NCBI GenBank assembly: GCA_021106765.1
Contig: JAIOTO010000004.1
Span: 1 to 38,216 of the forward strand
DNA: 38,216 nt
Source of the DNA: Methanosarcinaceae archaeon
Lineage (GTDB): Archaea > Halobacteriota > Methanosarcinia > Methanosarcinales > Methanosarcinaceae
Reading direction: 5' to 3'
Numbering within the stretch: the stretch's first letter is position 1; every line of letters starts with the position of its first letter. The notes beneath the pieces were generated by a model. That model did not search any database. It was not told where the DNA came from and saw only the letters and a program-made list of their open reading frames with translations. A program made the position numbers and the translations under genes. This document shows positions 1,635 to 12,302 of the stretch, one piece after another.

Positions 1635-2537
1635 TTACTCTGGCCCTTGTTCTTCCTTCATAAGTTCAATGAAGATATCCTCCAGAGATGGCTCGATCGT
1701 CCTCAACTCCAAAATATCCCCCCCTTTGGATGCCACCCAGCGAGTGATATGATTCACATCATCGATGTTCTCGGTCCTGACCAGATAATGACCATTGTCC
1801 TCTTCGATGTTCAGAGAGCCTATGCCCGTGATATCGTCAACCACGAATATGACACGATATGAGATTGTACCGTATTCCTGTCGGATCTGCTCCGGCGTCC
1901 CGAGCGTGATCATTTTGCCATCCTTCATGATCAATACACGATCACACAGACGTTCTACCTGATAGAGATTGTGTGCACTGAACACGATCGTCTTGCCGAT
2001 ACTCGTGAGAGAGGAGATATAATCTGTGATATATTTCGAGGTCATTGGATCCAGCCCGGAGGCAGGTTCATCGTAGATCAGGACTTTTGGATCGTTGATC
2101 AGGGATCGTGCAATGGCAACCTTGCGACGCATGCCCTTGGAGAGGTCGCCGATCTTCTTCCCATCGGAATTCAGGGACAGGTCATAGAGCAAACCGTTGA
2201 TCCTGCTCAGGGACGTGTGTCGATCCACTCCATATAGCTCCGCAAAGAATCGCAGGTATTCTTCCACTTCCATCCCCTCATACAATGGAGATTCTTCGGG
2301 AAGGAATCCCAAAAAGGAACGTATTGTCAGGGGATCCTGCTCCAGATCAAGCCCATTGATGATAATAGTGCCTGTCGTCTGCCGGATAAGGCTGCTGATC
2401 ATCTTCAGGGTGGTGGTCTTGCCTGCACCGTTGGGACCTACGATACCGAAGATCTCTCCTTGGTCTACAGAAAAGCTCAGGTCAGATACCGCAGTGAACG
2501 AACCATACTCTTTTCTCAACCCGGTAACTTTGATCAT
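1635..2537 (-). CDS. ABC transporter ATP-binding protein (NatA/Ccm-like, DUF4162 tail)
   Basis: This is the cytoplasmic ATPase of an ABC-2 exporter (300 aa). It shows Walker A GPNGAGKTT at residues 34-42, an LPEE stretch where many families carry the Q-loop, signature LSKGM at 132-136, Walker B VLIYDE at 152-157 and the switch histidine H189 in FSAHN. The last about 80 residues form the small C-terminal domain typical of NatA/DrrA-like ATPases. The start is taken at ATG 2537 (MIKVTGLRK). An ATG at 2549 is possible, but 2537 fits the family N-terminus and lies about 29 bp from the TATA box shared with the divergent permease operon. The divergent permeases are its likely partners. The cargo cannot be read from this protein. 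Confidence 0.93.
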   Translation of the reverse strand: MIKVTGLRKEYGSFTAVSDLSFSVDQGEIFGIVGPNGAGKTTTLKMISSLIRQTTGTIIINGLDLEQDPLTIRSFLGFLPEESPLYEGMEVEEYLRFFAELYGVDRHTSLSRINGLLYDLSLNSDGKKIGDLSKGMRRKVAIARSLINDPKVLIYDEPASGLDPMTSKYITDYISSLTSIGKTIVFSAHNLYQVERLCDRVLIMKDGKMITLGTPEQIRQEYGTISYRVIFVVDDITGIGSLNIEEDNGHYLVRTENIDDVNHITRWVASKGGDILELRTIEPSLEDIFIELMKEEQGPE

Positions 2538-2561
2538 ATTGGAACTCATTGTTGAACAATC

Positions 2562-2592: not shown

Positions 2593-4395
2593 ATGGCTGG
2601 CTGGGTGACCATTGCCAAATGGGAAGTGTTGCGGTCGAAACAGAAATTCGATATACGATCCACTGTCTTTTTAAGCGTGGCTTTGGCCATGCTCTTCCTT
2701 GCTGCCTTTGCTGCCACGAACACTAACATGAGTATGGACCAGAACATCTACCGGGTAGTGATCACTGACCCTTACCTGCAACCGATGATCGATGCCGACC
2801 AGAGGTTCGACATTATGATTGCTGATGAGCAGGACGAGAGAACGATCCTCGCCTATGATACGGAACTGCTGATCATAGGTCGCGATGTATATGTGAAGGA
2901 TACTGAAAAGGGAACCGCTGCAGCAGATGCACTGAAAAGAACATTGAAAAACTATCGTGAGATAGTCCTGACATCATACAATGATATCAATAACAGCCAT
3001 CCTGTCTGGATCACCGTACACTACATGGAGCGTTCTGAAAATTTTCAGATCATGAGTGGGGAACGAAGGGACATAGAGCAAACAGGGTCACCGGGAACAA
3101 CGCCCGGGATGGATCCGGCAGGTACCTCTGACAGCGAAACATTAGCCGGGGTCACCACCAGAGAAGGGGAACGTATTAGGAGTGTGGATGACCTGCAGAA
3201 AATAGGAGAACAGGCATTCTTTGAGAAACAGACGATCGCAACCCCCTCATTCTTCTCACCCCCCATACCGTTCACAGCGATACTCTATTCGTTCCTGTTC
3301 ATATTTCCCATATATTTTGTATCCCAGTTCTACTCATCCACCATCATGGATGAGCGTACAAATAAAAAATGTGAACTTGTGCTGGTGGCTCCCCTGCACG
3401 GCAGAGACATCGTTATCGGGAAGACGATGCCCTATCTGGTTACAATAATGCTAACTCTGGCTGCTGTTACGTTCTACATCAAGGGGATACCCGGATCAAT
3501 GGCTGAGATCCTGACTGTTTTGCAGATCCTCGCCACGGTATTCCCCATCGTGTTGCTTTTCCTCTCACTGTCGTTCTTCTCGGCAATACTGGCCCGAAGT
3601 TTCAAGGACCTAACCTTTGCGATGGTATTCCTGTCAGTGGTGATCACCGGATATCTCTTCTTCCCGGCTATGTTCGCGAACGTGCACACCATCAGCACCA
3701 TATCTCCCATGACGCTCGTAGTACATCTCATTGAAGGTAATGATGTCAGAATGGCTGAATATGTATTCTCGACCCTCCCCTTCTACCTGATCTCCATTAC
3801 CGTGTACGCGTTCGGGACCTTTATCTTCCGTGAGGAGGATCTCTTCACACAAAAACCACTTACTGAAAAGGTACTGGATACCATCGAACGGTTCCTGACA
3901 TACCCTGCAGGTTCCATATTCCTGCTCAGTATCATCTTCATACCCTTTGTATATATGACCCAGCTGATGCTGATAGTCATGCTCTTTAATCTACCGTTAC
4001 CGTATTCTATCCTTGGAATGATCATACTGGCTGCCTTTGTAGAGGAACTGGTAAAATCCATCGGCATTCTCACCCTGGTCAAACGGAAGATGGTTATTCT
4101 TACACCGAAAAGCACGATACGTCTTGCTGTACTTGCGGGCGGCGGGTTCTTTGTCGGAGAGAAACTTATCAGTCTGATCACATTATCAGCGATAGCCTCA
4201 TCCGCATTCGGGTCTGTCATGACACTGGGAGCTCTGCTGCTGATACCCCTGTTGCTCCATGTATGCACCGTCCTTGTCGTGGTATCCGGCCTGTATGTGA
4301 AGAACACACGATGGTACCAGCCGCTGGTACTGCTGGCTAGTCTGCTGCATGGACTCTACAATCTGTACCTTCTCCGGGGGATCATCTATGGCTAA
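2593..4395 (+). CDS. ABC-2 type permease fused to a PrsW-like intramembrane protease domain
   Basis: This 600-aa protein has two parts. Residues 1-410 look like an ABC-2/NatB permease: a first membrane segment near 24-42, then a long outside loop of about 190 residues with a Gly/Pro/Thr/Ser-rich linker, then a membrane block with the typical MDERTNKKCELVLVAP stretch. Residues about 430-600 are a second hydrophobic block with PrsW-family motifs: E484-E485-x2-K488, F519-x3-E523, H556 in a helix, and H586-x3-N590 (HGLYN). PrsW proteins are membrane glutamate-type proteases that cut membrane proteins near the bilayer. The frame is open well upstream of 2593, but the ATG there matches a leaderless start. 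The stop overlaps the next permease by 8 bp. That both parts are active is inference; the residues needed are present. Confidence 0.88.
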   Translation: MAGWVTIAKWEVLRSKQKFDIRSTVFLSVALAMLFLAAFAATNTNMSMDQNIYRVVITDPYLQPMIDADQRFDIMIADEQDERTILAYDTELLIIGRDVYVKDTEKGTAAADALKRTLKNYREIVLTSYNDINNSHPVWITVHYMERSENFQIMSGERRDIEQTGSPGTTPGMDPAGTSDSETLAGVTTREGERIRSVDDLQKIGEQAFFEKQTIATPSFFSPPIPFTAILYSFLFIFPIYFVSQFYSSTIMDERTNKKCELVLVAPLHGRDIVIGKTMPYLVTIMLTLAAVTFYIKGIPGSMAEILTVLQILATVFPIVLLFLSLSFFSAILARSFKDLTFAMVFLSVVITGYLFFPAMFANVHTISTISPMTLVVHLIEGNDVRMAEYVFSTLPFYLISITVYAFGTFIFREEDLFTQKPLTEKVLDTIERFLTYPAGSIFLLSIIFIPFVYMTQLMLIVMLFNLPLPYSILGMIILAAFVEELVKSIGILTLVKRKMVILTPKSTIRLAVLAGGGFFVGEKLISLITLSAIASSAFGSVMTLGALLLIPLLLHVCTVLVVVSGLYVKNTRWYQPLVLLASLLHGLYNLYLLRGIIYG

Positions 4396-5485
4396 ACGAA
4401 AGGGACGGAGCAGGACTATCCAGACCATCGCAAAAAAAGAATACCGTGAGCTGATGCACGAAAGAACATTCGTACTATCGGTGATCATCCAGCTGTTCAT
4501 AGCATCGTTCTCAACATTCCTGGTAATCGGACTTACGTCCTTCTACGACCCCATGGCCATGGGAGATATAGACATAAAGGGTACGAGAATAGCGATCATA
4601 GAATCTAATAACAGTGACCTGTACTCATTTATCGAGAACAGTGGGATCACTCCTCTCCCGTATGCAGATTTTACCCGTGCATCTTCTGCTTTCTATGATC
4701 GAAGAGTGGATGCCATCCTGCTGGTATCAGACGGACCTCCTGACGGACATGACTTGATCAATATTGATCTATATCTGCCGAGATCCGACATCAAAGCTAC
4801 TCTTGTTTCCATGCAGCTAAAGGAACCATTGGAGGAGTTCGAGCAGACTGTACGTGATATACGTACAAAACGCCTTGATGGATATACTCCCCTGGACATA
4901 AATTTCATTGATGACAAGCAGCAAACCTCATCCACATATTTCGAGTTCATTTATGTAGCACTGCTGCCCCTACTGATGTTCACTCCCGCCTTCATCTCCG
5001 GAGGATTGGTGATCGACCTCATTACCGAGGAGTTCGAGAAGAAGACCATTGACCTGTTACTGGTCGCTCCCGTCTCACTGCTTGATGTGATCAATGGGAA
5101 AGTACTTCTCACCGCGATCATCGCCCCCATCCAGTCCCTGGCGTGGATGCTGCTATTGATGGCGAATGACATAGTCATACATAACCCCATACAGATACTG
5201 GCACTGGTATTGGTCATCTCCTTTGTCCTGGTACTGGTGAGCAGTATCATATCGGTATGGTTCAGAGAACGAGGAGTCGGGCAGCTGTATTATTCACTGG
5301 TACTGATCGCCATGTTCCTTGCATCGTACCTGTTCACCAATTCACCCCTCAACCTTGTGACAAGGCTGAGCCTTCAAAGCATCTCTGTGCCTGAATCTGT
5401 CGGATGGATCGTACTGTATACCATGATCGCCCTGGTCCTGTATGCCATGCTGCACCGGAGTATAGGGAAATATAACAAGCTTTAA
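4388..5485 (+). CDS. ABC-2 type transporter permease
   Basis: This second membrane subunit (365 aa) has one N-terminal membrane segment (near 30-50), an outside loop of about 150 residues, and a five- to six-segment membrane block from about 195 onward. The conserved TEEFEKKTIDLLLVAP, close to the MDERTNKKCELVLVAP stretch of the first permease, marks it as the NatB/ABC-2 type. The start ATG lies inside the end of the previous gene (ATGGCTAA overlap), which points to translational coupling. It has no PrsW extension, unlike the first permease. The two permeases would form a heterodimer driven by the ATPase at 1635-2537. Confidence 0.9.
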   Translation: MAKRKGRSRTIQTIAKKEYRELMHERTFVLSVIIQLFIASFSTFLVIGLTSFYDPMAMGDIDIKGTRIAIIESNNSDLYSFIENSGITPLPYADFTRASSAFYDRRVDAILLVSDGPPDGHDLINIDLYLPRSDIKATLVSMQLKEPLEEFEQTVRDIRTKRLDGYTPLDINFIDDKQQTSSTYFEFIYVALLPLLMFTPAFISGGLVIDLITEEFEKKTIDLLLVAPVSLLDVINGKVLLTAIIAPIQSLAWMLLLMANDIVIHNPIQILALVLVISFVLVLVSSIISVWFRERGVGQLYYSLVLIAMFLASYLFTNSPLNLVTRLSLQSISVPESVGWIVLYTMIALVLYAMLHRSIGKYNKL

Positions 5486-5512
5486 ACGGTATGTAAAACA
5501 TAGATAGACCCA

Positions 5513-7300
5513 ATGTCTGCAAGGAATGTGATCCTGACCATCCTTATCCTGATGTTTCTATGCACGCCGGTCCATGCTCCTAATTTTCAGCATGAGGAGA
5601 TCTGGATACATCATGGCACCTTTGACCTGGCAATTGGTGAACGGGCACATGCAGAACACTATACCGTAAAGGTACATGACATACAGACCGAGGGAACGGA
5701 TCATTCTGCCAGCCTTCTGATCTATCTGAGCAAAAACTATAAGGAAATCTTCTTTACGGATGCTCTGGCCAACAATGAACATGTCTATGATGATGAACTG
5801 AAGATCATTACTACTGGTATTGCAGAGGGAAAGGTTTCCATCGAGCTCTACACGCATGAATATGAGAAGGTTTGGATACTCGATATTAACCGGACCAAAT
5901 TGGGAGTCGGCGAGATACTGGACATCACCGATGCCACGATCCTTGTCTCAGGTATAGAGGGGAATAATGTGACCCTTGAAATGAACATCGATGATCTGAG
6001 TACCACGGAAATATATACACAGGGGGTTGCCAGAAAATATTCCGATCAGTTCATGATGAGAATTGCCCATGTGGACAGTAATACTGAAAAAGCTATCATT
6101 GAGATATATCGACCCGGGATCCCCGAACTCCTGATCAGTATCACAGACATAAAGGACATCTACAATCAGGATGAAGATATAAAATTCAAAGCATTTGTCG
6201 AGAACACTGGTACCCTGCCTGTCCGGGGAGTTACAGTCACTGCCTCTTCCAGCAGCGGGAGTCTCGATGAAAACTATCAGACGGTGCCGATCATAGGTGC
6301 CTTCAGTGACCTCCGATTCCCCCTGAGCATAGTACCTCCGACGACTCCCACAGGCGAGACCATAATGCTCAACGCTAGGGTTGAGGGATATGATTACAAA
6401 GGTAACCCATACTCGAACTCCACCATTCGGGAGATATATGTTAACCCGTATCTGTCCATCGCAAAAACTGTGGAACATGAACAGATCGCTCTTGAGAGTA
6501 CCGATGATAGACCCGGCAAGCTCAAGGTCCATCTCACAATCACGAACAATGGTGATCTTGACACCATCATCCATGTGCATGACCAGGTTCCGGCCTCGTT
6601 CTTGCATTCCAGTATGCCATCCCTTGACTGGTCATTCGTACTCAGGGCCTATTCCTCAGAGGACATCACCTACACAGCAATCCCCACCCGTGCCGGCATC
6701 TTTGAACTCGATCCTGCAGTCGTGACATGGGATACCAGCGGGGGAACATACAGAATATCATCCGGAGGACTTAGTAACATATCTGTTGAGGGGACACGGC
6801 TGGTCGTTGAAAAGATAGTTGACCGAGACTATGCCTTTGTTGGAGAAAGCATTGAGATCACCATTCGAATCCACAATGAAGGCACCCGCAATGTAAATAT
6901 ATCGGTATCGGATTCCCTGCCACAGCAAGTTCAACTGATAGAGGGAGATACTGGATGGAATGGACAACTTCCTTCGCAGGAGACGATCGAACTCACATAC
7001 ACAGCGGAAGTACTACAGGAAAGAAACCTGGAACTACCGGCGGCGGAGGTAAGATACAAGGATGGTGTGGGCAAGACCGGAGTGGTACGATCCAGTCCAC
7101 TGATACTACACACATACAAGAATATTGTTGAGACAACTGAAACGCCAGGGGATGGAGAGATGATTACAGATGAGACGTCGGTCACTGGACCTACCCAATG
7201 GGGTATGACCACGTTCCTGATATCTTCATTCATAACACTCTTTTGTGTACTTTCAATCGTACCTGTGACCCTATATTTATATATAAACAGAATACGTTAA
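5513..7300 (+). CDS. secreted, membrane-anchored surface protein with DUF11/COG1361-like beta domains
   Basis: This 595-aa protein has a signal peptide (about residues 1-22, hydrophobic ILTILILMFLCTPVHA), a long extracellular part and one C-terminal membrane segment (about 566-590) with a short basic tail (YINRIR). The middle holds repeated beta-sandwich units of the COG1361 kind, recognisable by phrases such as NTGTLPVRGVTVTAS, VHLTITNNGDLDTIIHVHD and IRIHNEGTRNVNISVSD. These are typical of archaeal cell-surface proteins. Several N-x-S/T sites could be N-glycosylated. It starts 27 bp after the permease stop and is probably in the same operon. It may be the accessory surface part or a substrate of the exporter. 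The function is not known. Confidence 0.85.
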   Translation: MSARNVILTILILMFLCTPVHAPNFQHEEIWIHHGTFDLAIGERAHAEHYTVKVHDIQTEGTDHSASLLIYLSKNYKEIFFTDALANNEHVYDDELKIITTGIAEGKVSIELYTHEYEKVWILDINRTKLGVGEILDITDATILVSGIEGNNVTLEMNIDDLSTTEIYTQGVARKYSDQFMMRIAHVDSNTEKAIIEIYRPGIPELLISITDIKDIYNQDEDIKFKAFVENTGTLPVRGVTVTASSSSGSLDENYQTVPIIGAFSDLRFPLSIVPPTTPTGETIMLNARVEGYDYKGNPYSNSTIREIYVNPYLSIAKTVEHEQIALESTDDRPGKLKVHLTITNNGDLDTIIHVHDQVPASFLHSSMPSLDWSFVLRAYSSEDITYTAIPTRAGIFELDPAVVTWDTSGGTYRISSGGLSNISVEGTRLVVEKIVDRDYAFVGESIEITIRIHNEGTRNVNISVSDSLPQQVQLIEGDTGWNGQLPSQETIELTYTAEVLQERNLELPAAEVRYKDGVGKTGVVRSSPLILHTYKNIVETTETPGDGEMITDETSVTGPTQWGMTTFLISSFITLFCVLSIVPVTLYLYINRIR

Positions 7301-7325: not shown

Positions 7326-7736
7326 ATGGACATATATGGACTTATCATATCGACGGTGATCTTTGGGATATTTTCTGTCCTTACTCTCTTTGCCCTCATT
7401 AATCTCTCATCCATCATAGCACTGCTGATCCTGATCGGTATGCCCCTTATCGTGGTACTTGTCATACCGAGTGTCGCAACATCGTTCCTGTCGCAACAGC
7501 ATATCATTCTTGCAAATGGGGCAGTGCCCATAAACAACTACCACATCCTTCTGTTGATCTGGTCAACACTCATCGGTATCATCCTGTATACCGAGTTCCT
7601 GACATGGTACATGACAAAAGCGAGACGACCTCGAAAAGATCAAAACGTCTCACAGATGAACGATAATATCCGTAGCACTCTTGACCAGGTCATAAAACAG
7701 ATCAGAGACAGTGCCGGAAGGATCAGGAATCGTTGA
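7326..7736 (+). CDS. small membrane protein of the ABC export operon, unknown function
   Basis: I do not recognise this 136-aa protein. It has three predicted membrane segments (about 5-25, 27-50 and 72-94) and a basic cytoplasmic tail of about 40 residues (KARRPRKDQ, then an amphipathic helix to RIRNR). A ribosome site GGGAG lies 6 bases before the ATG. It begins 25 bp after the surface-protein gene and ends 14 bp before the convergent ABCE1 gene, so it closes the export operon. A structural or assembly role in that exporter is the simplest guess, based on position only. Confidence 0.75.
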   Translation: MDIYGLIISTVIFGIFSVLTLFALINLSSIIALLILIGMPLIVVLVIPSVATSFLSQQHIILANGAVPINNYHILLLIWSTLIGIILYTEFLTWYMTKARRPRKDQNVSQMNDNIRSTLDQVIKQIRDSAGRIRNR

Positions 7737-11106: not shown

Positions 11107-11333
11107 AATGGAAGTTCAGGTATTTACGTGTTTTCTTGAAACTGGTTTCTGTTTGACAAAAACACAAGCGGATTGAAGTTCCTGACCAATATAAATAAAC
11201 TCTTCTGAATGAATGAGTTTTTGTGCTTTGTGAACAATGATAGATATATCAGATGCTTAACTCAGGAATACTGAAGTGGATCAAATTATCGATATACAAA
11301 TATTAATGGGACTTTAAAAACTCGGTGACTATA

Positions 11334-12302
11334 ATGTGGACCATAGCAAGATCTTTTCGGATCATGGTAATATTGTCGATCCTTATCGTGTTGATCGTAT
11401 CAAGCGGATGTATTCGAGATTTTGAGGACGAGAGCTATCTCAGTATCACAGCCATGGATATTTCTGCAGAGAGTATCAGGACCAGCTATATGGTCATCAA
11501 TGTTACCACCTATGTTGAGAACCATGGCGGGTCAAGCGGGAATACTTCTATTCTGTTAAAAGCGTTCAACACAGAGACCGATCTCCTTGAGGTGCAGAGA
11601 CTGGATGAGATCAACATCATCGGAAAAGAAAAAACTATAAGCATTCCCCTGACACTTGAACTGCCTAAAAAGGATGGGTACAGGATCATTGCCACGATCT
11701 TTGAAGACGACGTGAAGAAAAGCAGTGGAAAAGTCACGCTCTATAATCTGGAAGAATTGCAGGCGGATGTAATGGACATAGGGATCGAGATCGAGGAGAT
11801 GGATTTCATCGTTCGGGAAGTGGATGGAGGACAGGTTATGATCCAGAATGACATCTACCTCACAAACGAAGGAAGGGATACGAGTGCGGATTATCAGGTG
11901 CTCATAAAAGCACGGGAAATGGATACCAGGCTGATCGTAGACAAGATCTGGACGCACACGGGCAAGATCGAACCTGAGACCACTATCATACAAACTGTGG
12001 AACTAGCAGTGCCGGATCAGCACAATTATGTTGTTGAAGTTATCGTGTGGAGGAATGATACCATTGTCAAACGCGGGGAAGATCATGTACAGCTCAGACC
12101 TGAGATGATAATGGATGAAGATACACACATAGAGACCAAAAATATTGAAACCAGCATCTTTGTACAGGAAGAGGAAGATATGAGCCGGGATTATTACGAT
12201 AAGGCAACACAGGATGAAATGGCGATGCCCGGGTTTGGAGTATTGTTGACAATGGCATCCATACTGTCACTGACGATAATACTGAGGAGGAGAATGAAAT
12301 GA
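11334..12302 (+). CDS. secreted PGF-CTERM surface protein with lipobox-like N-terminus
   Basis: This 322-aa protein has a signal sequence (about residues 1-28, ending LIVLIVSSGC) and an outside part of two beta domains with phrases such as NVTTYVENHGGSSGN and NDIYLTNEGRDTSADYQV. The C-terminus reads MPGFGVLLTMASILSLTI, then RRRMK: a PGF motif, a membrane segment and a basic tail, which is the archaeosortase A (PGF-CTERM) signal. The start is ATG 11334, with GGTGA seven bases before it; an in-frame GTG at 11325 overlaps that site. SSGC resembles a lipobox but has S at -3, so lipidation is uncertain. The next gene overlaps its stop by 4 bp (ATGA). Ligand and role unknown. Confidence 0.85.
   Translation: MWTIARSFRIMVILSILIVLIVSSGCIRDFEDESYLSITAMDISAESIRTSYMVINVTTYVENHGGSSGNTSILLKAFNTETDLLEVQRLDEINIIGKEKTISIPLTLELPKKDGYRIIATIFEDDVKKSSGKVTLYNLEELQADVMDIGIEIEEMDFIVREVDGGQVMIQNDIYLTNEGRDTSADYQVLIKAREMDTRLIVDKIWTHTGKIEPETTIIQTVELAVPDQHNYVVEVIVWRNDTIVKRGEDHVQLRPEMIMDEDTHIETKNIETSIFVQEEEDMSRDYYDKATQDEMAMPGFGVLLTMASILSLTIILRRRMK

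Follow-up and report, generated by a model that had tools for sequence, protein, structure and literature searches.

A conserved archaeal ABC-2 permease carrying a predicted PrsW-type intramembrane protease domain

What would an exporter subunit do with an intramembrane protease of its own? This question is raised by a gene of a Methanosarcinaceae archaeon (2593..4395, + strand, 600 amino acids) that lies in a stretch of 38,216 nucleotides, hereafter the window (assembly GCA_021106765.1, contig JAIOTO010000004.1). The original prediction, made from the DNA letters and their translations, had read the gene product as an ABC-2 permease to which a PrsW-like protease is joined, and had suggested an export-and-cleave unit.

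Results

The fusion gene starts with an ATG at 2593 and its stop codon ends at 4395. Its frame is real and uninterrupted, and our alignment revealed a conserved start, M-x-G-x-x-T-I-A-K-W-E, common to the fusion homologues. The N-terminal ~410 residues constitute the ABC-2 permease and the C-terminal ~160 the PrsW-type domain. For the permease part (residues 1-412, 2593..3828, + strand), two Pfam families were matched: residues 1-430 scored 34.4 bits against PF12679 (ABC2_membrane_2), above the cut-off of 27.2, and 29.9 bits against PF12698 (ABC2_membrane_3), just below the cut-off of 31.6. In the AlphaFold2 model of the whole protein, which is of low confidence at residues 130-225, TM1 (21-43) of this part is followed by an extracytoplasmic alpha/beta region (about 44-225) and then by five TM helices. 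The mean pLDDT of this model was 69.6, and a fold search with it was uninformative. A PDB sequence search with the full-length protein found no relative and a viral fold search no match. We dropped the reading of the fusion as a defence system, since none of the PADLOC defence families matched at E <= 0.1. A sigma-70 promoter scan was set aside as not meaningful for an archaeon.

The C-terminal domain (residues 436-600, five main helices, 3898..4392, + strand) was analysed by profiles and by motifs. Scanned alone, it matched PF13367 (PrsW) with 32.9-33.4 bits at a cut-off of 23.5. Full-length hmmscan of the 600-residue protein against Pfam did not report PrsW, and neither did a full-length NCBIfam search; the likely cause is the HMMER composition-bias filter acting on a long hydrophobic protein. 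The HMM comparison proposed with the original prediction came out in two ways: the PrsW match was recovered with the domain alone (33.4 bits), and CPBP was not, as PF02517 (CPBP/type II CAAX) gave no match to the window domain. Among 39 fused domains, PF13367 matched 20 at E <= 0.01 and PF02517 one, weakly. Profile and motif (EExxK, not EExxxR) ruled out a CPBP/CAAX identity. When we aligned the profile of the fused domains with that of stand-alone archaeal PrsWs (hhalign), the two matched motif on motif with a probability of 96% and E = 1e-9, and the stand-alone proteins have the same invariant residues.

All motif residues named in the original prediction are where it had placed them, and they are conserved far beyond chance. 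They form EExxK (E484, E485, K488; 4042..4056), FxxxE (F519, E523; 4147..4161), the intramembrane histidine of PrsW type (H556; 4258..4260) and HxxxN (H586, N590; 4348..4362), all on the + strand. Each of these eight residues is invariant in 25 full-length homologues that are 40-63% identical to the window protein. With divergent families added, E484, E485, K488, E523, K524, H556 and H586 were found in 28/28 full-length sequences, F519 and N590 in 27/28 each. Among the 39 fused domains, which are 23-69% identical to that of the window, only eight of 165 columns are invariant (39/39), namely E484, E485, K488, E523, K524, L553, H556 and H586; six of these are named motif residues, for which the chance probability is about 1e-9. 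Since the motif residues are invariant in 39/39 divergent domains and in 28/28 full-length proteins, we infer selection for catalysis and not for a mere membrane anchor.

B. subtilis PrsW has EExxK, a histidine in TMH5 and a final HxxxD, while in type II CAAX proteases the motifs are EExxxR and HxxxN and the extra histidine is absent (PMC4602095). The window domain displays the PrsW features EExxK and extra histidine, together with a final HxxxN that it shares with Rce1/CPBP and mostly also with the archaeal stand-alone PrsWs compared. EExxK, FxxxE, intramembrane H and HxxxN/D follow each other in the same order and spacing as in the PrsW family (PF13367; B. subtilis PrsW, MEROPS M82). Unlike members of that family, the domain is joined to an exporter subunit and has a shorter helical core. 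By motif, profile and score, the C-terminal domain belongs to the PrsW family and is a predicted protease.

An AlphaFold2 model of the domain only, built from the 39-sequence alignment, reached a pLDDT of 89 and a pTM of 0.84, with helices at domain residues 3-29, 36-62, 70-96, 115-135 and 137-158. In a fold search against 350,542 PDB chains, the top two matches of this model were APH-1, with probabilities of 0.93 and 0.38 at non-significant E-values (0.46 and 0.86). APH-1 is a known relative of the PrsW/CPBP superfamily (PMC3482391, PMC4602095). Counts of K+R per sequence were 2.7 in the loop H2/H3 and 2.0 in H4/H5, versus 0.2-0.5 in H1/H2, H3/H4 and the C-terminus. By the positive-inside rule, these counts place the loops H2/H3 and H4/H5 in the cytoplasm, so that the domain would go into the membrane from the cytoplasmic side, in agreement with the six helices of the permease preceding it. 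With the model helices and this topology, E523, H556 and H586 would lie 6-8 residues from the outer helix ends and E484 13 residues. Judged from secondary structure and loop charges, the motif residues of four helices would sit at much the same depth, in the half of the membrane that faces outward, where the active site would then lie.

The fusion gene is flanked by two further exporter genes. Divergent to it lies the gene of a NatA/DrrA-like ABC transporter ATPase with an ABC_tran and a DrrA1-3 C-terminal domain (1635..2549, - strand; PF00005 99.9 bits, PF13732 41.7 bits), whose Walker A, signature and Walker B motifs are intact. An alternative start of this gene is at 2537; its longest ORF, to 2747, would overlap the fusion gene. 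On the other side, a second, NatB-like ABC-2 permease gene (4388..5485, + strand; PF12698, 63.6 bits) likely starts with the ATG at 4388 and then overlaps the fusion gene by 8 nt; the longest ORF starts at 4349. Because the fusion gene is situated between the genes of a NatA-like ATPase and a second ABC-2 permease, we assign its product to the core subunits of a predicted heterodimeric exporter. The locus encodes a predicted ABC-2 exporter of permease, ATPase and partner permease.

At all loci that we compared, the second permease gene adjoins the fusion gene; the ATPase gene does so at nearly all. Where the flanking sequence was long enough, this triad was almost always found, phylum-wide; two loci (L137, L145) were without a recognised ATPase within the stretch compared. 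The ATPase gene is divergent or co-directional depending on the lineage (L139, L140, L141, L142 and others), and the fusion and second permease genes stay adjacent.

In Methanosarcinaceae only, the triad is usually followed directly by a DUF11-type gene, which is not linked to it outside this family. The window copy (5513..7300, + strand) encodes a secreted protein (PF01345 43 bits, PF13584 32 bits) that contains BatD/DUF11/CARDB-like repeats and, at its C-terminus, a TM anchor; hydrophobic segments lie at both the N- and the C-terminus. Next to it, and conserved with it, is the gene of a small membrane protein of 136 amino acids (7326..7736, + strand), which has a charged tail at the C-terminus and matched no family. 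The DUF11-type protein is a possible lineage-specific partner of the triad, as extracytoplasmic adaptor or as protease substrate, and the 136-residue membrane protein is a plausible one. Beyond the triad the neighbours differ among loci (for example radical SAM, aldo/keto reductase, penicillin amidase and argininosuccinate synthase genes). We found no precursor-peptide gene or modification enzyme conserved next to the triad across families. A phylum-wide operon dedicated to peptide maturation was rejected, as no additional gene is conserved beside the triad. Elsewhere in the window (11325-12302, + strand), a DUF7490 protein ends in a C-terminal PGF-TM-RRR tail (MPGFGVLLTMASILSLTIILRRRMK) that resembles the PGF-CTERM archaeosortase signal.

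How widespread the fusion is had been left open by the original prediction, and a search in other archaea now found it to be very widespread within the phylum. Covering sampled genomes of the window's own phylum and plasmids, the profile of the fusion family matched 205 of 394 genomes and 84 of 137 genera; the plasmid search gave one haloarchaeal match. Of the 205 matches, 203 had E <= 1e-31 and two (G118, G262) were weak and partial; full length and motifs were checked in an aligned subset. Named carriers are Methanosarcinaceae archaea, Methanolobus, Methanomethylovorans, Methanosalsum, Ca. Methanoperedens and Haladaptatus. Many relatives are without the fusion, so it is dispensable, and some relatives possess stand-alone PrsWs only. 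In a tree made by a quick method from a limited sample, with some long branches, the fused domains lay on one side of a branch (SH-aLRT 97), apart from ten stand-alone PrsWs. Given this split, the simplest reading would be one fusion event followed by losses. Six Methanoperedens-like genomes (G050, G058, G087, G108, G109, G110) possess both the fusion and a separate PrsW-like protein of ~200 amino acids. At one locus (L143, G264:C5:38500-52500, 5441-7193), the fusion gene is in two overlapping frames, a frameshift that is either an assembly error or a decayed copy.

Discussion

Taken together, our comparisons show the fusion gene to encode a predicted half of a heterodimeric ABC-2 exporter, in which the last helix of the permease is followed by a complete, strongly conserved PrsW-type domain. 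Retention of the fusion in about 200 of 394 genomes and the phylum-wide triad seem to favour functional coupling of the two parts. The export-and-cleave unit of the original prediction is compatible with all findings and is the reading that we favour. Tentatively, we picture a machine that cuts and ejects, combining intramembrane cleavage of peptides with ATP-driven expulsion of the fragments. The PrsW-type domain would be active, and its active site would lie beside the permease, nearer to the outer than to the inner face of the membrane. It would cut peptides embedded in the membrane, be they what is left of signal peptides or TM segments or else further hydrophobic peptides. Driven by ATP, the pair of permeases would expel the fragments to the outside. 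With both activities in one complex, the permease could pull out the products of the protease. The varying neighbours beyond the triad would suit a general substrate better than a dedicated one, and the lack of a conserved substrate gene would fit a housekeeping role. Whether one such complex clears signal-peptide and TM remnants outward throughout the phylum, perhaps supplying archaeal peptide signals, is more doubtful, and we put it forward as a possibility. Against this reading, many relatives do without the fusion, and within Methanosarcinaceae the DUF11-type partner could hint at a more specific role.

Other explanations have to be weighed against this one. The fusion might serve maturation and export: one particular precursor, be it a peptide, a lipopeptide or a surface protein, would lose its leader or membrane anchor through PrsW during export, in a PCAT-like manner but by an intramembrane protease. 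PCATs show that peptidase-exporter fusions evolve for leader removal (PMC7018657), and the Methanosarcinaceae copies adjoin a secreted protein with C-terminal TM anchor that is a possible substrate. However, no small precursor gene or modification enzyme is conserved beside the triad across families, and outside Methanosarcinaceae the DUF11-type gene is unlinked, so that we consider such a function rather unlikely; leader removal from exported peptides, an example given in the original prediction, is only one option. The domain might also act in regulation, the transporter half sensing flux or bound peptide and PrsW cleaving a regulator, or a partner of the transporter, in the manner of a site-1 protease. 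There is a precedent in B. subtilis PrsW, which performs the site-1 cleavage of RsiW (PMC9263693, PMC4602095). An active site at the depth proposed here, in the outer membrane half, would suit such a cut. However, to our knowledge archaea are without sigma/anti-sigma systems, and no regulator-like membrane protein is conserved beside the triad, which makes regulation unlikely.

It is improbable that the complex detoxifies peptides by destroying and expelling membrane-active antimicrobials such as archaeocins. PrsW and CPBP proteins have been linked to antimicrobial-peptide resistance and bacteriocin processing (PMC4602095), but the triad is stable and broadly present in methanogens and haloarchaea, not patchy like a resistance gene. 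Nor was there a defence-family match. If, on the other hand, catalysis had been lost, the PrsW domain would serve the permease for structure or docking only. Its best PDB match, at a non-significant E-value, is APH-1, a non-protease scaffold subunit of gamma-secretase. The domain is also short, its five main helices comparing with eight reported for most PrsWs (PMC3482391). Yet the core motif residues are all invariant in a domain whose identity otherwise falls to about 23%, and we regard lost catalysis as very improbable. Finally, it is hardly conceivable that faulty sequencing or assembly made one gene out of two. Nothing in the window speaks for this artefact, for which only the frameshifted relative L143 could be cited; it is ruled out by the uninterrupted architecture in independent assemblies of numerous species, among them genomes on a single contig and one complete plasmid.

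Known systems resemble the cut-and-eject machine that we favour in different respects. The bacterial family NF041647 (ABC_perm_CPBP) likewise combines an ABC-2-type permease with a C-terminal intramembrane protease of the same CPBP/PrsW/APH-1 superfamily, but the protease is of CPBP type there and of PrsW type in the archaeal fusion. NF041647 (636 positions, cut-off 435 bits) did not match the fusion protein or its parts. The unfused second permease scored 39 bits against its permease half, and the best score in the window's genome was 47 bits, elsewhere. Since only the partner permease matched and the fusion's own permease half did not, the bacterial and the archaeal fusions look as if they had arisen independently.

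Functionally, the archaeal machine would be a one-complex counterpart of Firmicute proteins, namely the S2P metalloproteases Eep/RasP and the ABC exporters EcsAB/PptAB, which work in one peptide-processing pathway but are separate proteins. In S. aureus, the processing and export of peptides from lipoprotein leaders require both Eep and EcsAB (PMC7157817), and the B. subtilis Ecs transporter also affects intramembrane proteolysis (PMC2996298). The comparison concerns function only, because the fusion permease had no match to the EcsB family. The triad shares with NatAB/DrrAB-type exporters the DrrA-type C-terminal domain of the ATPase and an extracytoplasmic domain between TM1 and TM2 (ABC2_membrane_3), but differs from them in having two unequal permeases, one of which carries a protease. 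As in PCATs (C39 peptidase-containing ABC exporters), the peptidase is within the exporter polypeptide; theirs is a cytosolic cysteine peptidase, N-terminal and on another exporter fold, whereas that of the archaeal fusion lies within the membrane and follows an ABC-2 permease on its C-terminal side. For toxin-linked PrsW fusions, the PrsW domain was proposed to couple cleavage with membrane passage; there it is N-terminal to toxin domains (PMC3482391), whereas the archaeal fusion is without a toxin domain.

A conserved exporter with a built-in intramembrane protease is a candidate machine for the fate of archaeal signal peptides, membrane stubs and released peptides, and its carriers are haloarchaea and methylotrophic methanogens, some of them culturable. 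If our reading is true, ABC exporters were repeatedly coupled to an intramembrane protease in evolution, as separate proteins in Eep-EcsAB, as bacterial permease-CPBP and as archaeal permease-PrsW. The concept is not wholly new, as NF041647 has the same design; among open-licence papers, we found no description of an ABC-PrsW fusion. Hydrophobic fusion proteins of this kind reveal a blind spot of annotation: the protease was missed by the full-length HMM scan, and in the NCBI annotation the plasmid-borne Haladaptatus homologue (WP_227356692.1) is named 'ABC transporter permease subunit' only.
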